A stretch of 64,000 nucleotides of DNA from NCBI GenBank assembly GCA_001600055.1, contig BCIV01000016.1, positions 268,477-332,476 of the forward strand, written 5' to 3'. Positions within the stretch are counted from its first letter, which is position 1, and each line of letters starts with the position of its first letter. Positions 22,703 to 36,984 of this stretch are shown piece after piece. This DNA is from Filobasidium wieringae. Taxonomy: Eukaryota; Basidiomycota; Tremellomycetes; Filobasidiales; Filobasidiaceae. A program made the position numbers and the translations under genes. Under the pieces are notes generated by a model. That model was not told the DNA's origin and did not search any database. It was given only the letters and a program-made list of their open reading frames with translations.

Positions 22703-23412
22703 CTACCACAGAGTCTTCCTGATCTCCCTCGCTTCTCTTGCAACACTCTTGTTGAAACCCCATCGTTTTTTCAGGTTAGATAGATCTTTCGATAGTTGTG
22801 ATCGATGCGAAGGGGGAGAAGGTGCTAGTCGTGCGAGATGAGCGGAGAGGGCGATAGGTATGTTGAACCTGTAGATCGGATCCGATAGCAAAAGTGATGA
22901 GTATTCAGCCTGAACAACCATTAGGAGTGAACGGGTCGAACTCACTTTTCACACAACGCCTTCCTTGTCCATCGAGCAGGATCATCTAACCTCAACCCTC
23001 TCATCTCCTGAATCACCTCCGCATTCAATCCAAGTCCCTCTTCAACTTTATCGACCCTTCTTCTCCTGACCAGAGGCGCTCCAGCCTGAGCACTTGCCCT
23101 GACGTTCCCTGACCCCTGAACCCATTTCAATACGTCCGGTACGGCCCCGGTATTGTAAGAGGGAGCAGAAGCGGGAGGTGCGTGATGAAAAGTTAATCCG
23201 GTATCCTTCAAAGCTACAGACGGAGGAGTTTGAGCGGGCGATCCAGGTCGGGGTCTCGATGTTCCTGCTGTTGGTTTCACATCGAGAGGTTTGAGAGGAG
23301 AGGGAAAGGACGGTCGTCGAGCTGGTCGAGCTCGGTGAAGGACTCCTCGAGTGTGAGGGATGCGGGGCATGAGATCGCTCACAGCGAAGGAAGAGAGTCG
23401 GAAAGATGGCAT
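22703..23412 (-). CDS. MRPL20: Mitochondrial ribosomal protein mL58 (MRPL20 family)
   Basis: Fungal-specific protein of the large mitoribosomal subunit. Exon 1 runs from the ATG at 23412 to the GTGAGT donor at about 22947. Exon 2 starts after a CTACAG acceptor near 22885 and ends at the TAG at 22703. The N-terminus (MPSFRLSSFAVSDLMPRIPH) is an Arg/Ser-rich mitochondrial targeting sequence. The diagnostic C-terminal part is intact: EVIQEMRGLRLDDPARWTRKALCEKFNI, where relatives have KFGCS, and the final basic helix with KKRWGFNKSVAREAREIRKTLW split over the end. Total about 210 residues, in the family range. It is divergent from the zinc-cluster gene across 458 bp. Confidence 0.85.
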
Positions 23413-23870
23413 GGCTGAGAAATTGTCGTCCTTGCGTGTAAAAGGTGTACGCCAGAGATGTGTTCGAGTCCGTCCTATGCATCATGCATCTTCGATCAGT
23501 AATTATACGAGGTGCCGTAGCAGTCCAAACGTCCAGGTCACGTGAAAAAACGCGCGACTTGGTCTCAATATACGCGAGAGAGAGACGACCTGAACCGGCC
23601 TTGACCTGCTAATTATCAGCTCTACCCTGCACCTCAACTCACTCAACGCTCCCTCGCCCTACTTTCCGCTCCTCGTGACCTCCCCATTAGCCTTACATGT
23701 CTGTCTCCATCAGGTTCCTCTCGACTACCCACCATATATAGCGAACACCCCAATCGTGAACGACTCAAATCGTTTCACATCGCTCGAAGCCTACGCCGCA
23801 CGTCAACACTGACGACAAGCTGTCTGTCTTTGAACCTTCAAGTAGATTCTGGTGAGGCAGACCGAGGCAA
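23413..23870. promoter_or_regulatory. Divergent promoter, mL58 / zinc-cluster gene, with TCACGTGA site
   Basis: 458 bp between two divergent start codons. It contains the palindromic octamer TCACGTGA at 23538-23545, the core recognised by CBF1/USF-type bHLH factors, 126 bp upstream of the mL58 start codon. A pyrimidine-rich stretch precedes the zinc-cluster start. Confidence 0.55.
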
Positions 23871-26800
23871 ATGTCGACTACCTCGTCTTCCTCACCTCGA
23901 CCTCCTCCGCCTCTTCAAGACCAGGGGTCACCGATGCAGGTCGATGACAAGCCCGCCCATGAAGCAGAAACATTCGACCAGCCTCATTTGGATGGGATCT
24001 TTCCACCAGAAATACAGCAGACTATCGATCAGGTCGTAAACGATCATGATCATGAGCTGGCGCAATCTATTGCGGCGGATTTGTTTGGCGGTGTCGTGCC
24101 GGAAGATTTGTTACAGGCGATCAATCAAGTTCAGCGGGAGGACGATGATCATGACGAGCTAATGGAGGGCGGAATGCAGGACGCTGCAGAGAGTATGATC
24201 AATTCGATATTCAGCTCAGACTTTCTGGACCAACTCAATGAGAATTCGGACAGCGTCTCGTTGGACATGCTGGAACATCACACGAATGCCACGAATTCCC
24301 CGTTCGTGCTCAATTTGGACCACGAACACCTCGCTTCGATCGCCAATTCGATCGTCAATTCTCCTCATGGTTCGGTCATGCAGGAACATACTCCCATACC
24401 ATCGCCAACACAAAACGGATTTGATAGACCCTTGCAGGCTCAGCCAGCCGGATTTCGACCATTCCATCCATCTCCTATTGCTACCACAGCCAGTCCTATT
24501 GTACCATCCCATCCTTCAACGGAAACGACACTGAGATCGACTTTCAACGGTGAATCTCATAATACCGTCCCCGTTATACCCACCGCAAGACCATCACCAC
24601 AATATACGACCACAACTCCGGAGACAGATCAGGCTCCCGCCATACCGAAAGCGTCCAGCGAGGTATCAAAGCCCTCTCCTTTCCCAGCAACTGTTCCGCC
24701 TAATGCTGCGCTCACAACCGTCCGGGCCGTTCCGAACGTACAATTGCAATCCAAATTGGCTACCAATCCGCAACCCAGTCCCAGTATCGGGCCAGACAAC
24801 TCGGTAAAGACGGCTGGAAGCGCAACTCCCACCCTTACGCATATCCCTGTCGCAGTGCCCTTGCCCTTAAAGCAGTCCTCGGCTTCAGTTAACGCAGCCT
24901 CGAGCTCTTCTAGAACGGATGCGATCGCCGGAAAGCCTCAAGACAATGACGATAGGCAGATCATCAAGAAGCGCCGTATCAATGAAGGCTTAGGCGAGAA
25001 AGCTCGAGTTATGGAGGGACTGGACGTTGCTGCTCTACAGGATTTCGAGGACATACTTTCAATCCCAGGTATCTCAGAGATCAGTGGAGATCTTAGGGAG
25101 GTGCTAGAAAGTGGTTCCACTGGAGAGAAGCCGCTCAGCCAAGCACAAATCGATGAGATCGTCGGTGAGTGCATTGGACAGGATACTTGTGGCGCGGGCT
25201 CACCTTTCATCTCGTTTTAGCTTCTCTCGGTCGTCCTGGTACTTTAGATCAGAAGAATCAGGAAGAAACCGTGCCAGCGCAATTTGCTCATCCGATAGCA
25301 TCAGCTTCAACAGTGTCAGGCAAATCCTCACAGGAGAAGATCGCTTCAGCCGGGGAAGATATTGACGAACTGGAAGATGACAACGATCCGGCCTCACAAG
25401 CTCAGGAACTTCTTGCCATGATCAGCGCTCTCCTTCCAGCTGGCGAAGATTATCAGGACGATGGTGCCCAATCGGAAGATGAGCTCGAGAATGACATAGA
25501 CGAAAATGCAGAATCTCCCGCACCCGCATCGCTACCGGACGGAAAGGTGAAAAAGGAAAAGGATACGCCCGCAGAGAAAAAGGAGAAAAAGCGACGGAAT
25601 CGGATGGTTCTGTGAGCAATTGAGACAGTATCGCCAGCTAGTTCGCCCTTCTAATCTAGTACCATACATAGGAGTTGTACCGAATGCCATAGACGAGTGA
25701 GTGTACTGCTCGTTTGCCCCATGTTTGGCCATGCTAACGCACCTCTTTCCTTGACCAGAAACGTAGGTTGCGTTAAAATTAGAGTAAAGATTGTTACTAA
25801 CGTCCTTCTGTCTGGTTGAATCTTGCTCATGACAGAAGCAGTAAGTCACTATTCCCTTCGCTTCTGTGCAATGTTCTCATGTTGCTTTCGCCATCAAAGT
25901 GCGATCGTAATATACCCTGTGCCCGATGGTCAGTCCGAAGAAACCAGTTCTCTATCACGAAGTTGGGTACTGACACCAAGTAAACAGTGTGAAGCGAGGT
26001 GTTCCGGAGCTCTGCCACATGGAAGCCCCCGTCATGCCAACAAGGAAAGGCAAGCGAAAGTAAGACGATAAGCTACTATCATGATGGATATACATTGACC
26101 GAATACTGATTACCTTCAGGCGGGAAGACGAAGCCTTCTATCAAGCCATGTCCGCTCCTGGGTTCGATTGGACCGCCCGAGTACGCGCGCTGGAAAGCTT
26201 GTTGCGAACAAATCCTGCCGCATTTGCCGATCTGGACCTGAACAACACCCTTGTTAGTGGCATGTCTAGCTTGCAGATGCCCTTATCTGAGGTGCCTACT
26301 GCGGACGAACAAGAGATGCAAAACCAGATCCAAGCGGTAATTAGTCTTATCAATCAAGCACAAGCTGCTCAGCATCAGCTTGAATTAGAAGGTACCTCTT
26401 CGAACTTAGTGACCGCACACCTCACGCCGACTGGGGCTCCACTGGCTAGACCGGTGGAACCCAACAACGCACTGAAATCTCCTGCATCTACGGCTTCAGT
26501 GGGGCCTAATCAGGCTTCAATAAAAGTGATATCACCTCTCACCCACGCTACTGATGCTCAACCCAGAACTGGTGGTGTGGGCGATGTGCAGTCCCCCAGG
26601 GCATCGCCTGGTCCAAGTTCTTTGCCTGCTGCAAGCTCACCTGGTGTTAGACCTGTGTCACAGACAAATCGTTCCAGCCCGATGCCATCTCCTTTAGGTG
26701 TATCGTCCTTCAGCAATAACTCTACCGCTACACCAAAGCCATCTTCATCGGTACCTTCAAGAATCATCTCCGCCAACGCTAACACGAAAGCGCCTACGAG

Positions 26801-29332
26801 TCCACTTGTGATCGCGGCCGGACCCGATGCAATACCGCAGCCCCTATCAAGCTTGCAACTCACACGATCTAGCTCAGTCGACGTTGTGCAAGAGCATGCG
26901 AAGCTCATCGAGGTGCCGAAGAGCGATCTGGTGCCTTTGACCGTAACAAACGTACTCCCGGCGACTGGTACGGATAAGCAGAGCACAACAGTGACAGAAG
27001 GACCAGACGGTGTAGCCTCAGCAGTGGTGCCAAAGGAGAACAATGGTATCATTTCCGACGTTCTTGAGACTTCTGTGGGTGGAGAGGGTTCCCATGGTCA
27101 TACGAATGAGAGAGCGAAGGTTTTACAACTAGCGAGCAAACCCGCTAGTCCTCCCCAACCTCTCAATGAAGGTGCTGATCCCCAGGACGTAGGGATGCAC
27201 GTCGACCTGATACCTTCGGGGTCGTCCCAACCTCCTGAAGTTATGACTGCCATCGAAAATGATACTAGTTCAGGCGACTCGTCCGAGATGAACACCAGTC
27301 ATACTGCCAAGGATTCTGGAGCACTTAATATACCTGCAAACCTACAGGCTGAATTGGCAAAGCTTGCTCAAGGAGTTCAAGACTCTGCCTTCACAGACGA
27401 TCTGCACGAATCGTTCGAGACCGACATAAATCTTAATGATCTTATCAATGGCGATACCTCAGCAATTTTAGCGCAGCTCGCGAGTTCCATAACAGTCCCT
27501 ATGGCTGTTCAGCCGTCGGAGACGGATGATGCTCAAGGAACGATCCTCATGGACATGATAACTCAACTGACGAATGGAGGGAATAAAGCGCAGACAGCTT
27601 CGTTGCTAAACATACTATCTGTTGCTCCACAAGCTGCTACAACCCCTACTAGCGAGCTCTGGGCATCAGTACCACAAGCGCCTGTCGAGACGTAAGAGAA
27701 TGTCTTTTGAAATGGTAACAAGGGAAACTCACCTTCTTCGACTTCTTTTAGCACGCAACAAGTGGCTCGTTCTTTCAGCACAGATATTGGTGTCCATAAG
27801 TTGAATTTAGGCCTAGCTGGGTTTCGAGAGGACGACGGACGAATATTCGTCCCACCTACAACTCGACAGGTTGAGCGCCAAATGCATCTCCGAGGAGGAC
27901 TGTCTCACGAAGCCCTTCCCATTGAGGGTCATGCTCCCTTCCTAGATCTCGCTCTCAAATTCGCCTACGGGAAAGATGGCTATGCGTACAAGGAGGGTAG
28001 GGTAGGTACTTTCCCATATCTATACGACTTGACCTAGCCTACACTAAGCCGTCCCGCTCTGCACAGATTGCTGCTGTTCAGACGATGTCGGTTACTGGTG
28101 CTCTGAAACTTGGCGCCACTTTCTTGTCACGCTTTCCTGCTCACCCTGCTTCGAAAGTAATTTATATTCCAAATCCAACGATTGAGGAGGAGGCTTGGGC
28201 ATTGCGCGAGGCAGGCCTGGAGATTCGCCTATATCGGTTCTTCGACAGAAGGACTGGAGGTGTGGACTGGGAAGGCATGCGAGAAGATTTGCAGAACGCG
28301 CCGCATCAATCGATCATTCTTATGCATGTCGGTGGAAGTACACCTACTGGCGCAGAGCTCACGGCTGCGCAGTGGCGGCTGATTACTGAAGTTATAAAGG
28401 TGCGTTCGTCCTTGACACATACATGCTTTTGGAACTGCGTGCTGAACAACAGACCATATTCGATTTAGCAACAACGCCATATCCCGTTCCTTATTTCAGA
28501 GTTCCAAGGCTTGTCCAGTGGCAACGTCGATCGAGATGCACAAGCCTTAAGAATTATGGCGCATAAACGGATCCCTATGGTCTTGGCTCAAAGTTTTGAT
28601 GCTGTGAGTCCGCAACTTGTTCCACATGGTGAAATCAACTCATACAAATTCATCAACAGGCCATGGGCTTGTACTCTGACAGTCCATCTATCGTGTCAAT
28701 CGTGGCCAATGCTCATGCAGATAAGGACAGAATTGAATCGCAGCTCAAGCATATGGCTCGCGCAATGCATTCACATCCACCACCCTGGGGAGCTCACGTA
28801 GCTGCTACAATACTCGGCACTGAAAGCGTTTATAATAACTGGCAAGTACGATAAGAATCATCTATCTGACTGAACCGCTTACGTTCGTTTCTTGGAACCC
28901 TGCAGGACACAAGAGGTCAAAGCGATGTCCGATCGTTTAAAAAGTATCCGTGAAAAGCTATTCGATCATTTGACCAACAAGCTCAGAACCCCTGGTAATT
29001 GGTCGCATATCCGGAAGACGCATGGCATGTATTGGTGAGCAATATTCCCTGAGCCGTCTTGCAAATATATATCTTAACAATTCTTTGATAGCAATACACT
29101 TCTAGCTCCACAGCAGCTACAGACGCTTTCTTATAGAGAACACATACACCTACTACCGGAAGGCTGTTTCTCTCTGGGTTGTCTGAATGCAGCCAAGATC
29201 GAACAGCTCGCCCGTGCGATCGACAGTGTGGTTCGAGATTCTCCTATGGAGGATGATGATCTAGCTGCCCAGGCTGCCATGCAAATCGAGATGGCACTTC
29301 GCCAAGGATTTGGGCCCGATGCTGGATTTTGA
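23871..29332 (+). CDS. Zn2Cys6 DNA-binding protein fused to a catalytically dead aspartate-aminotransferase-fold domain
   Basis: Fourteen exons (23871-25164, 25221-25611, 25672-25696, 25759-25762, 25836-25840, 25900-25928, 25988-26059, 26120-27691, 27752-28001, 28067-28399, 28469-28603, 28660-28841, 28906-29034, 29092-29332) sum to 4662 nt in frame: 1553 residues. Residues 1-545 are disordered and acidic. At 564-592 lies a canonical fungal zinc cluster, CTECHRRKQACDRN followed by PCARC and a sixth Cys (spacing 2-6-5-2-8), preceded by the basic KKRRNR. A second Ser/Thr/Pro-rich linker follows. From about 1135 to the end is a complete class I aminotransferase fold: NLGLAGFREDDGR, AVQTMSVTGALKLG, SEFQGLSSG, AQSFDAAMGLYSD, LLPEGCFSLGCLN. 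Every key catalytic residue is changed (see findings). Two exons of 4 and 5 nt supply three residues of the zinc cluster. The intron at 28842-28905 is GC-AG. Inferred role: a nuclear regulator that uses the fold for dimerisation or ligand sensing. Confidence 0.85.
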
Positions 29333-30451: not shown

Positions 30452-30898
30452 GGTAAAAGAGCCGCTTTGGTGTAGAACTGGCGAAAGAACAACTCCATAT
30501 AGGTTCGTCGAGGTCTCGCCGAGCTGTCCGCTGCATGGGCGTATTACAGATATCCTGTAGGTGTCGACATAGCTAGCATCCGCACTTCAGAAGCGACGCG
30601 TATATGAGTCAGATTACTGTACCTGCTAATTGCTGATATCTGTTCAGTAGTATGGATGCCTTGTACTCTATGCTCCCACAAACCACAAATAGCACTTGGC
30701 ACCACTTTTAAGGTCGATCAAGTCAACATATCGAATTGCACCAGTATCGTTCAGCTGCTCAGCGCGTAATCCTAGAGCAAGCGTTTCTTGCATTTCACGG
30801 GAAGCAAGACGATCTTAGCTGCACCTGAAGAGCCACCTATCTAGCGATGAGATGCTAGTCCGAAGATAGTTGAACAATCCTTGCCGTTTCCCCTCGCA
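30452..30898. promoter_or_regulatory. Divergent promoter, PEX11 / CTK1-like kinase
   Basis: 447 bp between divergent start codons. No gene or repeat seen, and no specific motif recognised. Confidence 0.45.
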
Positions 30899-33800
30899 AT
30901 GTCAAACTGGAAACAACGGGGACGCCAGCATGATCCATATATCCGGGATGACGGGTGGAAGCGCAGGGAGGATCGACAAGCTGTAGCGGCATCGGTTCTG
31001 CCAGGAGATCCACGAAGGGACAGCGACCGAGCTATCAGGCAAGGTGAAGGTCTGGACTCGTCGCTTCGCAATATTCATGATGGTACTCCCCTCGGCACTC
31101 GAAGCTATGCTGACGAAAACCTCGACCAGCCTTCAGGAAGCCGCTGGAATCAAGGAGGTAGACCTATCCAACCACGCAAGTTTTTAGATACAGAAGATCG
31201 CTACAGTAATAGCAGATCAGGCTCTGATTACAACAGGTCATACCATGATGCTGTGAGGGAGGGCCGCAATCGAGATTCCTTTTCTCAGAAAAAATCTACA
31301 AGTAGGCAAGCTTACAAATCAGTTAGTTCTCGTGCACACCAACCAACTAGCCACCGGGTCCGCGCAGACAGACGGTCACCTGAACGCTCTTCAACATCGC
31401 CCGAGCCGCTACACAGAGATACTGAGCAAAAGCGTAGATCTGTATCCCGACATAGTTCTAGCTCAATAGAACCGGTGAGTGGAAAATCGTATCCACGCCG
31501 TCACACTCGGCAACCTCTTGGACAACCGGATAAGCACGATTCTTACGGCGGATCTGCTTATAAAGAGATACGTCGCAGCAACTCTCCGAGACCAAACGAA
31601 GCTACCCAATCTTATACTAGCAACTCTCACAAGCGAAGTGCATATGCGGATGATGACAGGGAAATCAACAAGCGACGGAGATTGTCCCGTTCACCTTCCC
31701 CATTGGCCCCGGCAACAGCCGCAGTCGGCTGGGACCGATGGCGTCGGCAACGTCTTAGCAACACGAAGCATCCCGACACAAATATCAACGAGGACATCGG
31801 TAAAACTGGCAACGCCACTCGACCAGACGATCATTCTTCTGTCGTGCGGAATGCGTATGAAAATCGTAGCCATACAAGCACAAGGGTCTATTCTGGCTCT
31901 AGTCGAGAAATCGGCAGAAAAGGCTCTGGTCGAGCTTTTCAAGACCGCAGAGATGAGCCCGATCGCGAACCCCGCAGCTATCAAAGATCTCCATCTAGAT
32001 CTCCTCGACGTTCTCAGGCAGATAGACCTTCATATCGTACTGAGCGAGTCAAACGGTCTCCTTCACCAGTCCGTGATATCAGACGGAGAAACGCAAGCGT
32101 CTCTTCCTTCTCATCTGACGAGTCGTCCGAACCTCAGGCACAGAGACCGAGTGCATATGTATCCAGCAGAGCTCGACGGAATACACGCTCGACATCGGTT
32201 TCTACTAGACGTGCAGTCGAACGGCTATCTTCTAGAGAGCGTTCCCCTCGAATCGATTCTGGGGGAGCTCCCGTCAGAAACAGATCGCGTACTCTGATAC
32301 CGACAAGTCCAGCCAGAAACCGCTCTCCCAAAGGAGTCCGTTGGGCATCGCAACGCGATGATGATACGAGTCCGGCGTCGCCCAAACCACCTATAGTAAT
32401 CCCTCCAAGGACAGGGCGTACCCCAACTGGACCTCGAAACACAAACTACGAAGGGAACCATTCTGGAGTGCATCATCGGTTTCTTACGAGAGTTTCTCCT
32501 ACTCCTACTCCTGCTTTTGCAGATCTGCCTGAAGTGAGCCCGAGGGCTTTAGCTGGTAGCCGCGCCTTTGTCAGTATCGCTCTTCCAAAGAAGCAATCGA
32601 TCGTTTCGCAGGCAGCTCGATCTCCCGAACTCAAACCCAAGCCTCAGGGTTTGAAGGCGGACATGCTAGCCAATAATTCCGAGCTTGAGGGAGTTAGACG
32701 ACAGCTGACAGCCGAGCAAGGACGATACTCACAGTTGCAACATCAAGCACACCCTTACATGAGAACGACTATCTCGCTGCTGCAAAGAAAGGATCCTAAC
32801 CTTGTCTGGAATGTCGAAGATTTTCTTCGAGACTCTTTTCGTCGAGAACCCAACGATCATGAACTCCACGCTATTGGTATGATGCATAGTCAGCTCAAGA
32901 TCATCAGGCTGCTCGAGGAGCGAGAACAAGCGCTTCTCAATCTTATCTCCACTGCCGACGAGGCAGGTCCTCCCAGCACGGCGGCTATCGCTTCACCATT
33001 CCGCTCCCCGAATGGTGGCAATCAACGTATTGTCGACAGGGAGTCAGCTCGATGTTACGAGCCACAAGGATCACATCCTAGTCCTACTGTACCATCGGAG
33101 CGGGACCTGAGGTCTCTAGACATAATATCCTCTCAACGCGTCCAGCCTGAGGACTTACCAGTCGGGAGTTCCAACAAGCCGTCCCCGAAAAACTTCTCTC
33201 TGCCACAGCAAGCACCTTTGGTCAAAGGAAAGCCTTACGAGAAGATTGTACAAGTAGGCGAGGGTACCTATGGGAAAGTTTATAAAGCTCGGAATCAAGA
33301 GGGGTGTGGAATTGTAGCCCTAAAACGAATACGAATGGAAGGAGAGAAGGACGGCTTTCCGGTGACCGCCATGCGCGAAATCAAACTACTTCAAGGGTTA
33401 AATCATGAGAATGTTATCAAGCTGCACGAGATGATGGTATCCAATGGTAAGCAACCTTGGCTTTCGAACTGGTGGATGTGAGGACTGACAGAAGGCTTGC
33501 AGGGTCGGTATACATGGTTTTCGAATACATGGAGCACGACCTTACGGGAGTGCTTAATCAACCGCAGTTCATTTTTTCTGAAGGGAATCTTAAAAGTCTA
33601 TCGGCACAAATGCTGTCTGGACTATCATATCTGCATCAGAAATCGATTCTACATCGAGACATGAAGGGCTCAAACATCTTGCTCAACAGCATGGGTATAC
33701 TTAAATTGGCAGATTTTGGTCTGGCCAGGTTTTACGATAGAAAGAAACGCAACGATCATACAAATCGTGTCATTACCCTTTGGTATCGTAGTCCGGAACT

Positions 33801-34923: not shown

Positions 34924-35269
34924 CCTAAAGGCAAACAAGCAGATATGCCCTCAAATTAGGAACGAAGTGGAGGAGTGTTTGGGGATGCATGGTCTCACTC
35001 ACTTGGTATCCACCAGAAGTTTCAAAAAGGGAGAGAAGTGGGGAGAGTCCAACGTTGGGTGCCGGGTGGTTACAATCAGTGCATAGTTGCGATTGGTATG
35101 AATGGTAACGGTTGCCTGTAAAGTGAAGCCCTAATAATTCACGTTCGCTCGAGCGAATAAAGTACCAATTCGAATTCGTCCGTCATACGGTGGGATATCG
35201 AAAGCATCCTCTTTCAATACTAATCCACACGTCCTAGGGCGCCAGCCTTTCCCAGCACATACCCAACCG
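34924..35269. promoter_or_regulatory. Divergent promoter, NDUFB3 / bZIP gene
   Basis: 346 bp, including a 5' UTR exon and intron of the complex I gene (GTGAGT near 34998). No further element recognised. Confidence 0.45.
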
Positions 35270-36984
35270 ATGCTAGTACCTCCGTCAGTTCCAACAGGGC
35301 AACATCACCAGTCTTCACAGCCGCTATCAGACCAGGATGTTCTGGGCTCGATCACTTTAGCTCTAGCGAGTACAGCGGATGGATTCGAACGAGATCTCAC
35401 AACGAACATGAATGTAGACCGCGGAAACAACGGCGATCTCGTTGACGAATCGAGGTCGACGGATAACCATATAGAGGAATCTAACAGGGGCTCTAGATCT
35501 ACTCTGGCAATCAAACGCGGACGGGGCCGACCGAAAGGATCTCTGGATAGGATGCCAAGAGCGTCTCGGGCAGGAAAGTCAGGGAGCGTGGATGATTTTG
35601 AGCTTGGGGAAGTCGGTCAGGATGTGTTCGATAATGACCCAGCATATACAGCTGCAAAACGTAGGCCGGGGCGACCACGAAAGCCAACCGGTGCAAGCGT
35701 CTCTGTGCATGAGGCGGCCGCGTCCAAACTCGGCAGTTCACTTCCACCCTATCAGTCAAGCTCGAAGAAGCCGTCACAAGGTGGAGAGGGTCCGAACCCA
35801 ATGAGCGCCGAGAGGAGAGAGGCTAATCGATTGGCAGCGGAGCGCAGTCGACTCCGCCAGGCAGAAAGAGCGACCATTCTAGAGACAATGGCCAAAGGAA
35901 TGACACAGGAGAACATCGAGTTAAAGAGTAAAATCAACGCTTTGATGGCACTGGCCGATAGTACCGATAGACCTGTCACTTCATCTCAACACCCTCAAGC
36001 TGCGGATTGGCAGCGTACTGGTCATAAATTAGCGTTGGGGACAAACGAAAATCGATCATCCGTCAGCGTACCAATAGGTTCTACTGTCATAGTCGAACGT
36101 ATGCCTTGTCTACAATCGGAGATAGAGGATGGTCTCCAACGCGATGCTAAGCAATTAGAAGCCTTGCTGAACGGAGGGGTCACGCAAGCAGCAGCTTCGT
36201 ACACAGAGGAAATTGGTTCTACCTTTGATGAGCGGGAGACACTCGAGGACATCGCTAGACGCTTAGAAACGGAGCGCCAGCAGTCTTTGCAAAAACTGTC
36301 TCGTTCTCGAGCGGGACTCCTCCAGTTACGTGTATCTGCTGATCATCCGGTGCCATCTGCGGAGCATGACGTTGACGCTGCGCAAGTTCATCTGGCATTT
36401 GCCGGCCTCGAAGCACACGTCGACCAATTACTTGCGGTAAGACAACAAGTTTCAAGTTCCGAACACATCTGACTTGGTTGCTGACAGCCAAATCGGATAT
36501 TTAGCATTACGATCCCGTTCCCAGTATGAAGTCCAGTCAGATGTTTACTTTACCGGCGAAGTTCTCTCCGATACCACTGCCTGAGCCTTTGAAAAGAGGG
36601 CGTCCTAGCAAGGTTCAAGAAGAGAAGACCGTTCGGAGACGCACAAACAGAGCTCTCAACAAGGTCTCCACGAACGAACACAAGCAAGGATCGCGTCCCA
36701 CGGAGCGCAAAGTGAAAAAACGTCCCGAGCAATTTCGGCGTTTCCGGGTTGAAGGGGACCCTGATAATATATACATCGAGAAGAGACAACCAGCTGCAGG
36801 AGCCCCTGGTGAGATCGTCGAAGTGATCAGTAGAAGAATTTATAATCCCCGACCGGATCTTTCAGGCTTCAGACACAAAGAGCGAAATCGGTCCAGCGAT
36901 TTAGAGGCTCATTTAAACCGAATTGAGCCGCACACAAACTCTAGTGTTCTGGAGGAGCGAGGTGCCCACGACTCATTTTTGTAA
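35270..36984 (+). CDS. bZIP transcription factor with three AT-hook motifs
   Basis: Two exons, 35270-36436 and 36505-36984, give 548 residues in frame. The basic region ERREANRLAAERSRLRQAER has the N-x7-R spacing of bZIP proteins and is followed by a helix (TILETMAKGMTQENIELKSK) that serves as a short zipper with Leu/Met at heptad positions. Two AT-hooks precede it (KRGRGRPKGS about residue 84, RRPGRPRKP about 131) and a third lies in exon 2 (KRGRPSKVQ). Each can bind the minor groove of AT-rich DNA. The middle holds long helical segments (LEDIARRLETERQQSLQKL) that could form a further coiled coil. The exon junction requires the TTTAG acceptor at 36504; the nearer GACAG acceptor leads to a stop. 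A nuclear DNA-binding role is strongly suggested; the target genes are unknown. Confidence 0.85.

Follow-up and report, generated by a model that had tools for sequence, protein, structure and literature searches.

Regulators that sense through an enzyme-derived domain are already known from bacteria (MocR) and from two-gene modules of fungi (QutA/QutR). MocR/GabR proteins, which belong to the GntR superfamily, carry a DNA-binding domain, a linker and a C-terminal domain of the aspartate aminotransferase (AAT) fold in one protein, and in GabR a pyridoxal phosphate (PLP) aldimine is formed on the active-site lysine (PMC6917764, in the part available). In Aspergillus, QutA/QutR, GaaR/GaaX and TanR/TanX each couple a zinc-cluster activator to an enzyme-derived repressor, and the QutR-type repressor is hypothesized to be catalytically inactive yet able to bind the inducer (PMC10512348, available part). 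Here we describe a predicted gene at positions 23871-29332 of a 64,000-nucleotide stretch of the Filobasidium wieringae genome (GenBank assembly GCA_001600055.1, contig BCIV01000016.1, positions 268,477 to 332,476 of the forward strand; hereafter the window). An original prediction, made from the sequence alone, had proposed at this place a Zn2Cys6 transcription factor fused to a complete aminotransferase fold, by analogy with MocR regulators. Our computational analysis makes it probable that the locus is a single-gene zinc-cluster transcription factor with a C-terminal dead AAT pseudoenzyme (the pseudo-AAT) derived from a eukaryotic AAT gene.

The domain order bears out the proposed MocR-like layout of DNA-binding domain, linker and AAT fold, and a C-terminal AAT-fold domain (fold type I) is present as judged by sequence homology. 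The parts themselves differ from those of MocR/GabR: a Zn2Cys6 cluster stands in place of the winged helix, the linker runs to several hundred residues, the position of the PLP lysine (K258) is occupied by alanine, and the AAT domain is nearest to eukaryotic AATs. With the Aspergillus modules the locus shares a fungal zinc-cluster activator coupled to an enzyme-derived part; there, however, the repressor is AROM-derived and encoded by a separate gene, whereas here the part is an AAT within one polypeptide (compared with the available part of PMC10512348). No Zn2Cys6-aminotransferase fusion occurs among the open-access matches listed, subscription papers and supplementary tables lying outside this scope. 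This agrees with the earlier claim that no fungal Zn2Cys6 equivalent had been described, the two-gene QutA/QutR analogy being known. The word 'aminotransferase' is absent from the available main text of a C. neoformans factor survey (PMC4391232) and appears as one table entry in the available part of PMC4192604.

Gene model and the join of the two domains

Rebuilt from the sequence, the 14 exons splice, as had been proposed, into one 1553-residue frame with no internal stop, and the introns (12 GT-AG and one GC-AG) are 56-73 nucleotides (nt) long. Elsewhere in the genome, the catalytic residues are intact in at least two ordinary AAT genes, so that the enzyme duty is covered; two of them, one of the cytosolic and one of the mitochondrial type, are referred to below as the genome's own AATs. 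The features of the predicted gene are as follows.

23871..29332, forward strand: whole coding region, 14 exons, 1553 residues; spliced frame open from ATG to a single terminal stop
23871..25611, forward strand: exons 1-2 (23871-25164 and 25221-25611), acidic low-complexity N-terminal region, by composition
25672..26059, forward strand: exons 3-7, Zn2Cys6 cluster (residues 564-592) and the following basic stretch, by Pfam and PDB match
26120..27691, forward strand: exon 8, low-complexity linker (about residues 661-1118) with the AAT N-terminal arm (about 1120-1130) at its 3' end
27692..27751, forward strand: intron 8, within the AAT arm, phase 2, shared in codon and phase with the own cytosolic-type AAT
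27752..29332, forward strand: exons 9-14, pseudo-AAT body (to about residue 1520) and acidic C-terminal tail, by AAT homology
28842..28905, forward strand: GC-AG intron 12, at a Trp codon, shared in codon and phase with the own mitochondrial-type AAT

The evidence at the join centres on exon 8, which holds the last portion of the DNA-binding part as well as the linker and, at its 3' end and in the frame of the linker, encodes the AAT N-terminal arm. The coding frame of this exon runs through 1572 nt with no stop; about 22 stops would be expected in such a length, all of 2000 simulated sequences were interrupted, and the other two forward frames contain 26 and 28 stops. The 11-residue arm (residues 1120-1130) scored 18.5 against the arm of genuine AATs, compared with 8.3 for the next segment protein-wide, in a profile whose columns came from the alignment itself. 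Furthermore, two of the six introns of the AAT domain are identical in codon and phase to introns of the own AATs; by chance, at least two exact matches have a probability of 0.004 and at least one a probability of 0.096. For intron 12, a GT donor breaks the frame and the GC-AG intron preserves it, and the donor was picked so as to preserve the AAT frame. The claim that both domains lie in one gene and one frame is borne out by the arm in exon 8 and by the position of intron 8, and on this sequence evidence the join of the zinc-cluster part to the AAT domain appears well supported. An in-frame TAA lies at 27693-27695, within the intron 8 donor, so that retention of intron 8 would yield a zinc-cluster factor without the pseudo-AAT.

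Fungal Zn2Cys6 factors follow the six-cysteine pattern CX2CX6CX5-12CX2CX6-9C, and the predicted protein has it as CX2CX6CX5CX2CX8C, with cysteines at 564, 567, 574, 580, 583 and 592. Together with a Pfam Zn_clus match above cut-off (24.9 bits, cut-off 21, residues 563-588), this spacing confirms the canonical cluster originally placed at residues 564-592. The closest solved structures for the first 765 residues are the DNA-binding domains of HAP1/CYP1 of Saccharomyces (E 4.1e-6), the match covering the Zn2Cys6 cluster and its basic flank. In HAP1 the cluster is N-terminal and heme motifs are present, whereas here the cluster is central and the AAT domain comes after it.

The six cysteines are distributed over exons 3 to 7, and two of these exons are microexons, one of 4 nt at 25759-25762 and one of 5 nt at 25836-25840. 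When splice combinations were enumerated with introns restricted to GT-AG and to a minimum length of 45 nt, the Zn2Cys6 pattern arose in none of the 18 open combinations without a microexon, in 3 of 77 with one and in 3 of 24 with two; a cluster without microexons was thereby ruled out. Among the six open combinations that yield the pattern, the chosen model alone gives CHRRKQAC, the usual form of the zinc-cluster sequence. If either microexon were skipped or missed, the DNA-binding domain would be disrupted, and for this reason automatic annotation may fail to recognise the gene as a transcription factor.

Upstream of the cluster, residues 1-545 have a pI of 4.4, contain 63% disorder-promoting residues and include several acidic/hydrophobic segments, which could activate transcription; the linker has a pI of 4.5. 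In the whole 1553-residue protein exactly two Pfam families, Zn_clus and Aminotran_1_2, were matched at E values up to 1, both of them above cut-off in a search that had been proposed as a check. At the same threshold, Pfam gave no match to a GntR-type winged helix, to the AROM C-terminal domain homology or to the fungal-specific transcription factor middle domain, the last of which is common but not required (40 of 78 factors in C. neoformans; PMC4391232, available part).

The aminotransferase-like domain and its active site

The Aminotran_1_2 match scored 126.8 bits (cut-off 19.7) and extends over residues 1146-1517 and profile positions 2-361 of 361. In the PDB, the last 428 residues match a mitochondrial AAT best (E 7.1e-77, residues 1132-1522). 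Altogether the AAT homology runs from about residue 1120 to about residue 1520 and is followed by a tail of about 30 residues. What stands of the complete aminotransferase originally placed at about 1135-1553 is the full-length homology, within these revised limits; the active site is incomplete.

The comparison set comprised seven genuine AATs, namely the two own AATs and five of the eight PDB rows (81 sequences matched per search), the near-duplicates 3hlm, 8skr and 6dnd having been dropped. The rows are, as we take their species labels to be, from human, yeast and chicken, and the mitochondrial row 5ax8 entered as its aligned part only, without its first residues. The pseudo-AAT is 31-37% identical to the seven, with 31.8% and 36.6% for the own AATs. 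It thus resembles eukaryotic AATs, which we take to be subgroup Ia, in full-length homology, in this level of identity and in two common intron positions, and differs from them in that it lacks the catalytic lysine and most of the contacts to cofactor and substrate and is fused to a transcription factor.

In a tree of eight rows, the human mitochondrial row was the partner of one own AAT (94/93), and the other own AAT clustered with two cytosolic rows (95/95). The pseudo-AAT sat on a long branch of 2.25 changes per site and was not placed among the mitochondrial or the cytosolic AATs of these rows, and the two exact intron matches point to different sources, one cytosolic-type and one mitochondrial-type. 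Because the nearest solved relatives are eukaryotic AATs and intron positions are shared with the own AATs, the domain most likely derives from a eukaryotic housekeeping AAT.

Of 98 positions invariant across the seven genuine AATs, 57 are kept in the pseudo-AAT. The losses concentrate in the active site, where 4 of 15 invariants are kept (T109, S255, R292 and S296), compared with 53 of 83 invariants outside it (Fisher p = 0.010); with a narrower active-site list, 3 of 12 are kept (p = 0.025). The 11 replaced positions are K258A, D222I, N194T, W140I, Y225F, Y70A, R266S, R386C, G108V, G38A and N297H. In AATs, K258 is the PLP lysine, D222 contacts the PLP nitrogen and R386 contacts the substrate carboxylate. 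None of K258, D222, R386, N194 and W140 (roles and standard AAT numbering as we understand them) is present in the pseudo-AAT, and both own AATs retain all five. By comparison, the stretch 285-303, presumably part of the dimer interface, keeps 8 of 9 invariant positions, including R292 and S296.

Intron 11 starts directly after the K258 position, and a lysine supplied by its alternative splicing was considered and rejected: 17 donor/acceptor pairs were checked, 6 were open and 5 of these preserve the AAT frame, and none of the six open choices places a lysine between QSF and GLY. The AAT domain looks catalytically dead, that is, a pseudoenzyme. The earlier suggestion that transcription responds to PLP or an amino metabolite in the manner of MocR/GabR was not upheld, given alanine at the K258 position and differences at 11 of 15 active-site positions. 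Since the PLP lysine is replaced along with most contacts to cofactor and substrate, MocR-type control through a PLP aldimine is unsupported, and a mechanism like that of GabR appears very unlikely.

Possible roles of the pseudo-AAT

In the reading that we favour, a zinc-cluster factor with a dead AAT in one gene, the pseudo-AAT would be a dimerisation module that also senses a ligand or partner. The Zn2Cys6 domain would bind DNA and the acidic segments would activate transcription. The pseudo-AAT would form an AAT-type dimer, thereby pairing two zinc clusters, and its emptied pocket or the domain surface would tune the activator in response to a protein partner or to a metabolite bound with no Schiff base. 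We also put forward, tentatively, a narrower version in which the protein is a PLP-independent eukaryotic counterpart of MocR: a housekeeping AAT of some fungal lineage would have been duplicated, joined to a zinc-cluster factor and deprived of catalysis, and would persist as a dimeric sensor by which transcription follows amino-nitrogen flux. Such a sensor might detect a dicarboxylate or amino acid by way of the retained R292 side of its pocket, or a genuine AAT through a heterodimer. If true, the MocR layout would have been invented independently in this single-chain zinc-cluster factor with its dead AAT, the AAT fold could persist for regulation after PLP chemistry is lost, and the protein would allow a clean test of what the fold itself contributes, be it a dimer, a pocket or a docking surface.

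Several points weigh against the favoured reading. The exon models of the fusion gene and of both own AATs were homology-guided, a CTNAY branch candidate is absent from 3 of 13 introns, and the Zn_clus score is modest relative to its cut-off. For the four domain introns without an exact match, the distances to the closest AAT intron are 8, 11, 12 and 51 nt, and the match of intron 12 is not fully independent, since its donor was chosen to preserve the AAT frame. A six-frame Pfam search of the genome gave 41 Zn_clus and 10 Aminotran_1_2 matches, none of them inside the window; introns split both domains, and a six-frame search with the AAT protein does match the window's own exons. The invariant positions were defined by seven AATs (five PDB rows and two own) with no bacterial AAT included, and the active-site and interface lists were compiled after the alignment had been viewed and have R292 and S296 in common. 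Finally, the long branch makes relaxed constraint possible.

Among the alternatives, the one that survives best, although still unlikely, is that the pseudo-AAT pairs with a genuine cytosolic- or mitochondrial-type AAT and thereby makes transcription depend on the abundance or the state of that enzyme. The retention of 8 of 9 invariants in stretch 285-303, the kept N-terminal arm and the presence of two genuine AAT genes are consistent with such a partner sensor, whereas the identity to the own AATs, just 31.8% and 36.6%, argues against it.

Rather unlikely, too, is a decaying passenger, a functionless AAT domain in the course of being lost after a gene fusion. The branch of 2.25 changes per site, the loss of catalytic residues and the restriction of the evidence to one genome would fit such decay. 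However, about 400 residues run without a stop or frame break in the spliced model, and the 57 of 98 invariants kept are unevenly spread, with 53 of 83 outside the active site and 4 of 15 inside it.

We consider it decidedly improbable that there are two genes here and that the splice model wrongly joined a zinc-cluster factor to an adjacent but separate AAT-like gene. Within unspliced 27600-27900, the AAT frame has a single ATG, at 27882, which lies inside the domain and is preceded by in-frame stops at 27693 and 27708; a separate AAT gene would need a start within exon 8 or a separate unseen exon. Exon 8 does contain in-frame ATGs at 27501, 27549 and 27555, which could begin a stand-alone AAT-like protein and may leave room for an additional short product, and intron 8, if left unspliced, terminates the factor at 27695. 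Against two genes stand the arm and the post-cluster linker in the same unbroken exon and the fall of the joining intron at an AAT intron position, and with an internal promoter the fusion would still be made, alongside a second product.

The least probable reading is a true eukaryotic MocR equivalent, with PLP in the AAT domain and an amino-metabolite aldimine controlling transcription: the shared layout, the full-length AAT homology and the retention of R292 and of S107, T109 and S255 (the last three of which we take to be part of the phosphate cup) would suit it, but K258, D222, N194, W140, Y225, Y70, R266 and R386 are replaced by Ala, Ile, Thr, Ile, Phe, Ala, Ser and Cys, and with alanine at the K258 position and no lysine supplied by any intron 11 splice choice, a Schiff base would be impossible at that position and most PLP contacts lost.

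Other genes in the window

Upstream of the fusion gene, 22942-23481 on the reverse strand matches MRP-L20, a mitochondrial ribosomal protein (36.1 bits, cut-off 30.4), and this neighbour is transcribed away from the fusion gene. Downstream, an 876-residue frame at 30851-33481 on the forward strand is rich in arginine and serine in its N-terminal part and contains the beginning of a protein kinase domain (51.1 bits, profile positions 1-70 of 263); by eye, its product looks like a CTK1/CDK12-type kinase. An open frame at 35138-36472 on the forward strand has a bZIP_1 match of 28.5 bits (cut-off 27.6). Farther along the same strand, a 640-residue frame at 49909-51831 matches LAG1-DNAbind with 64.5 bits (cut-off 25) and a beta-trefoil profile below cut-off (23.1 against 25), and probably encodes a protein of the CSL (CBF1/Su(H)/LAG-1) type.

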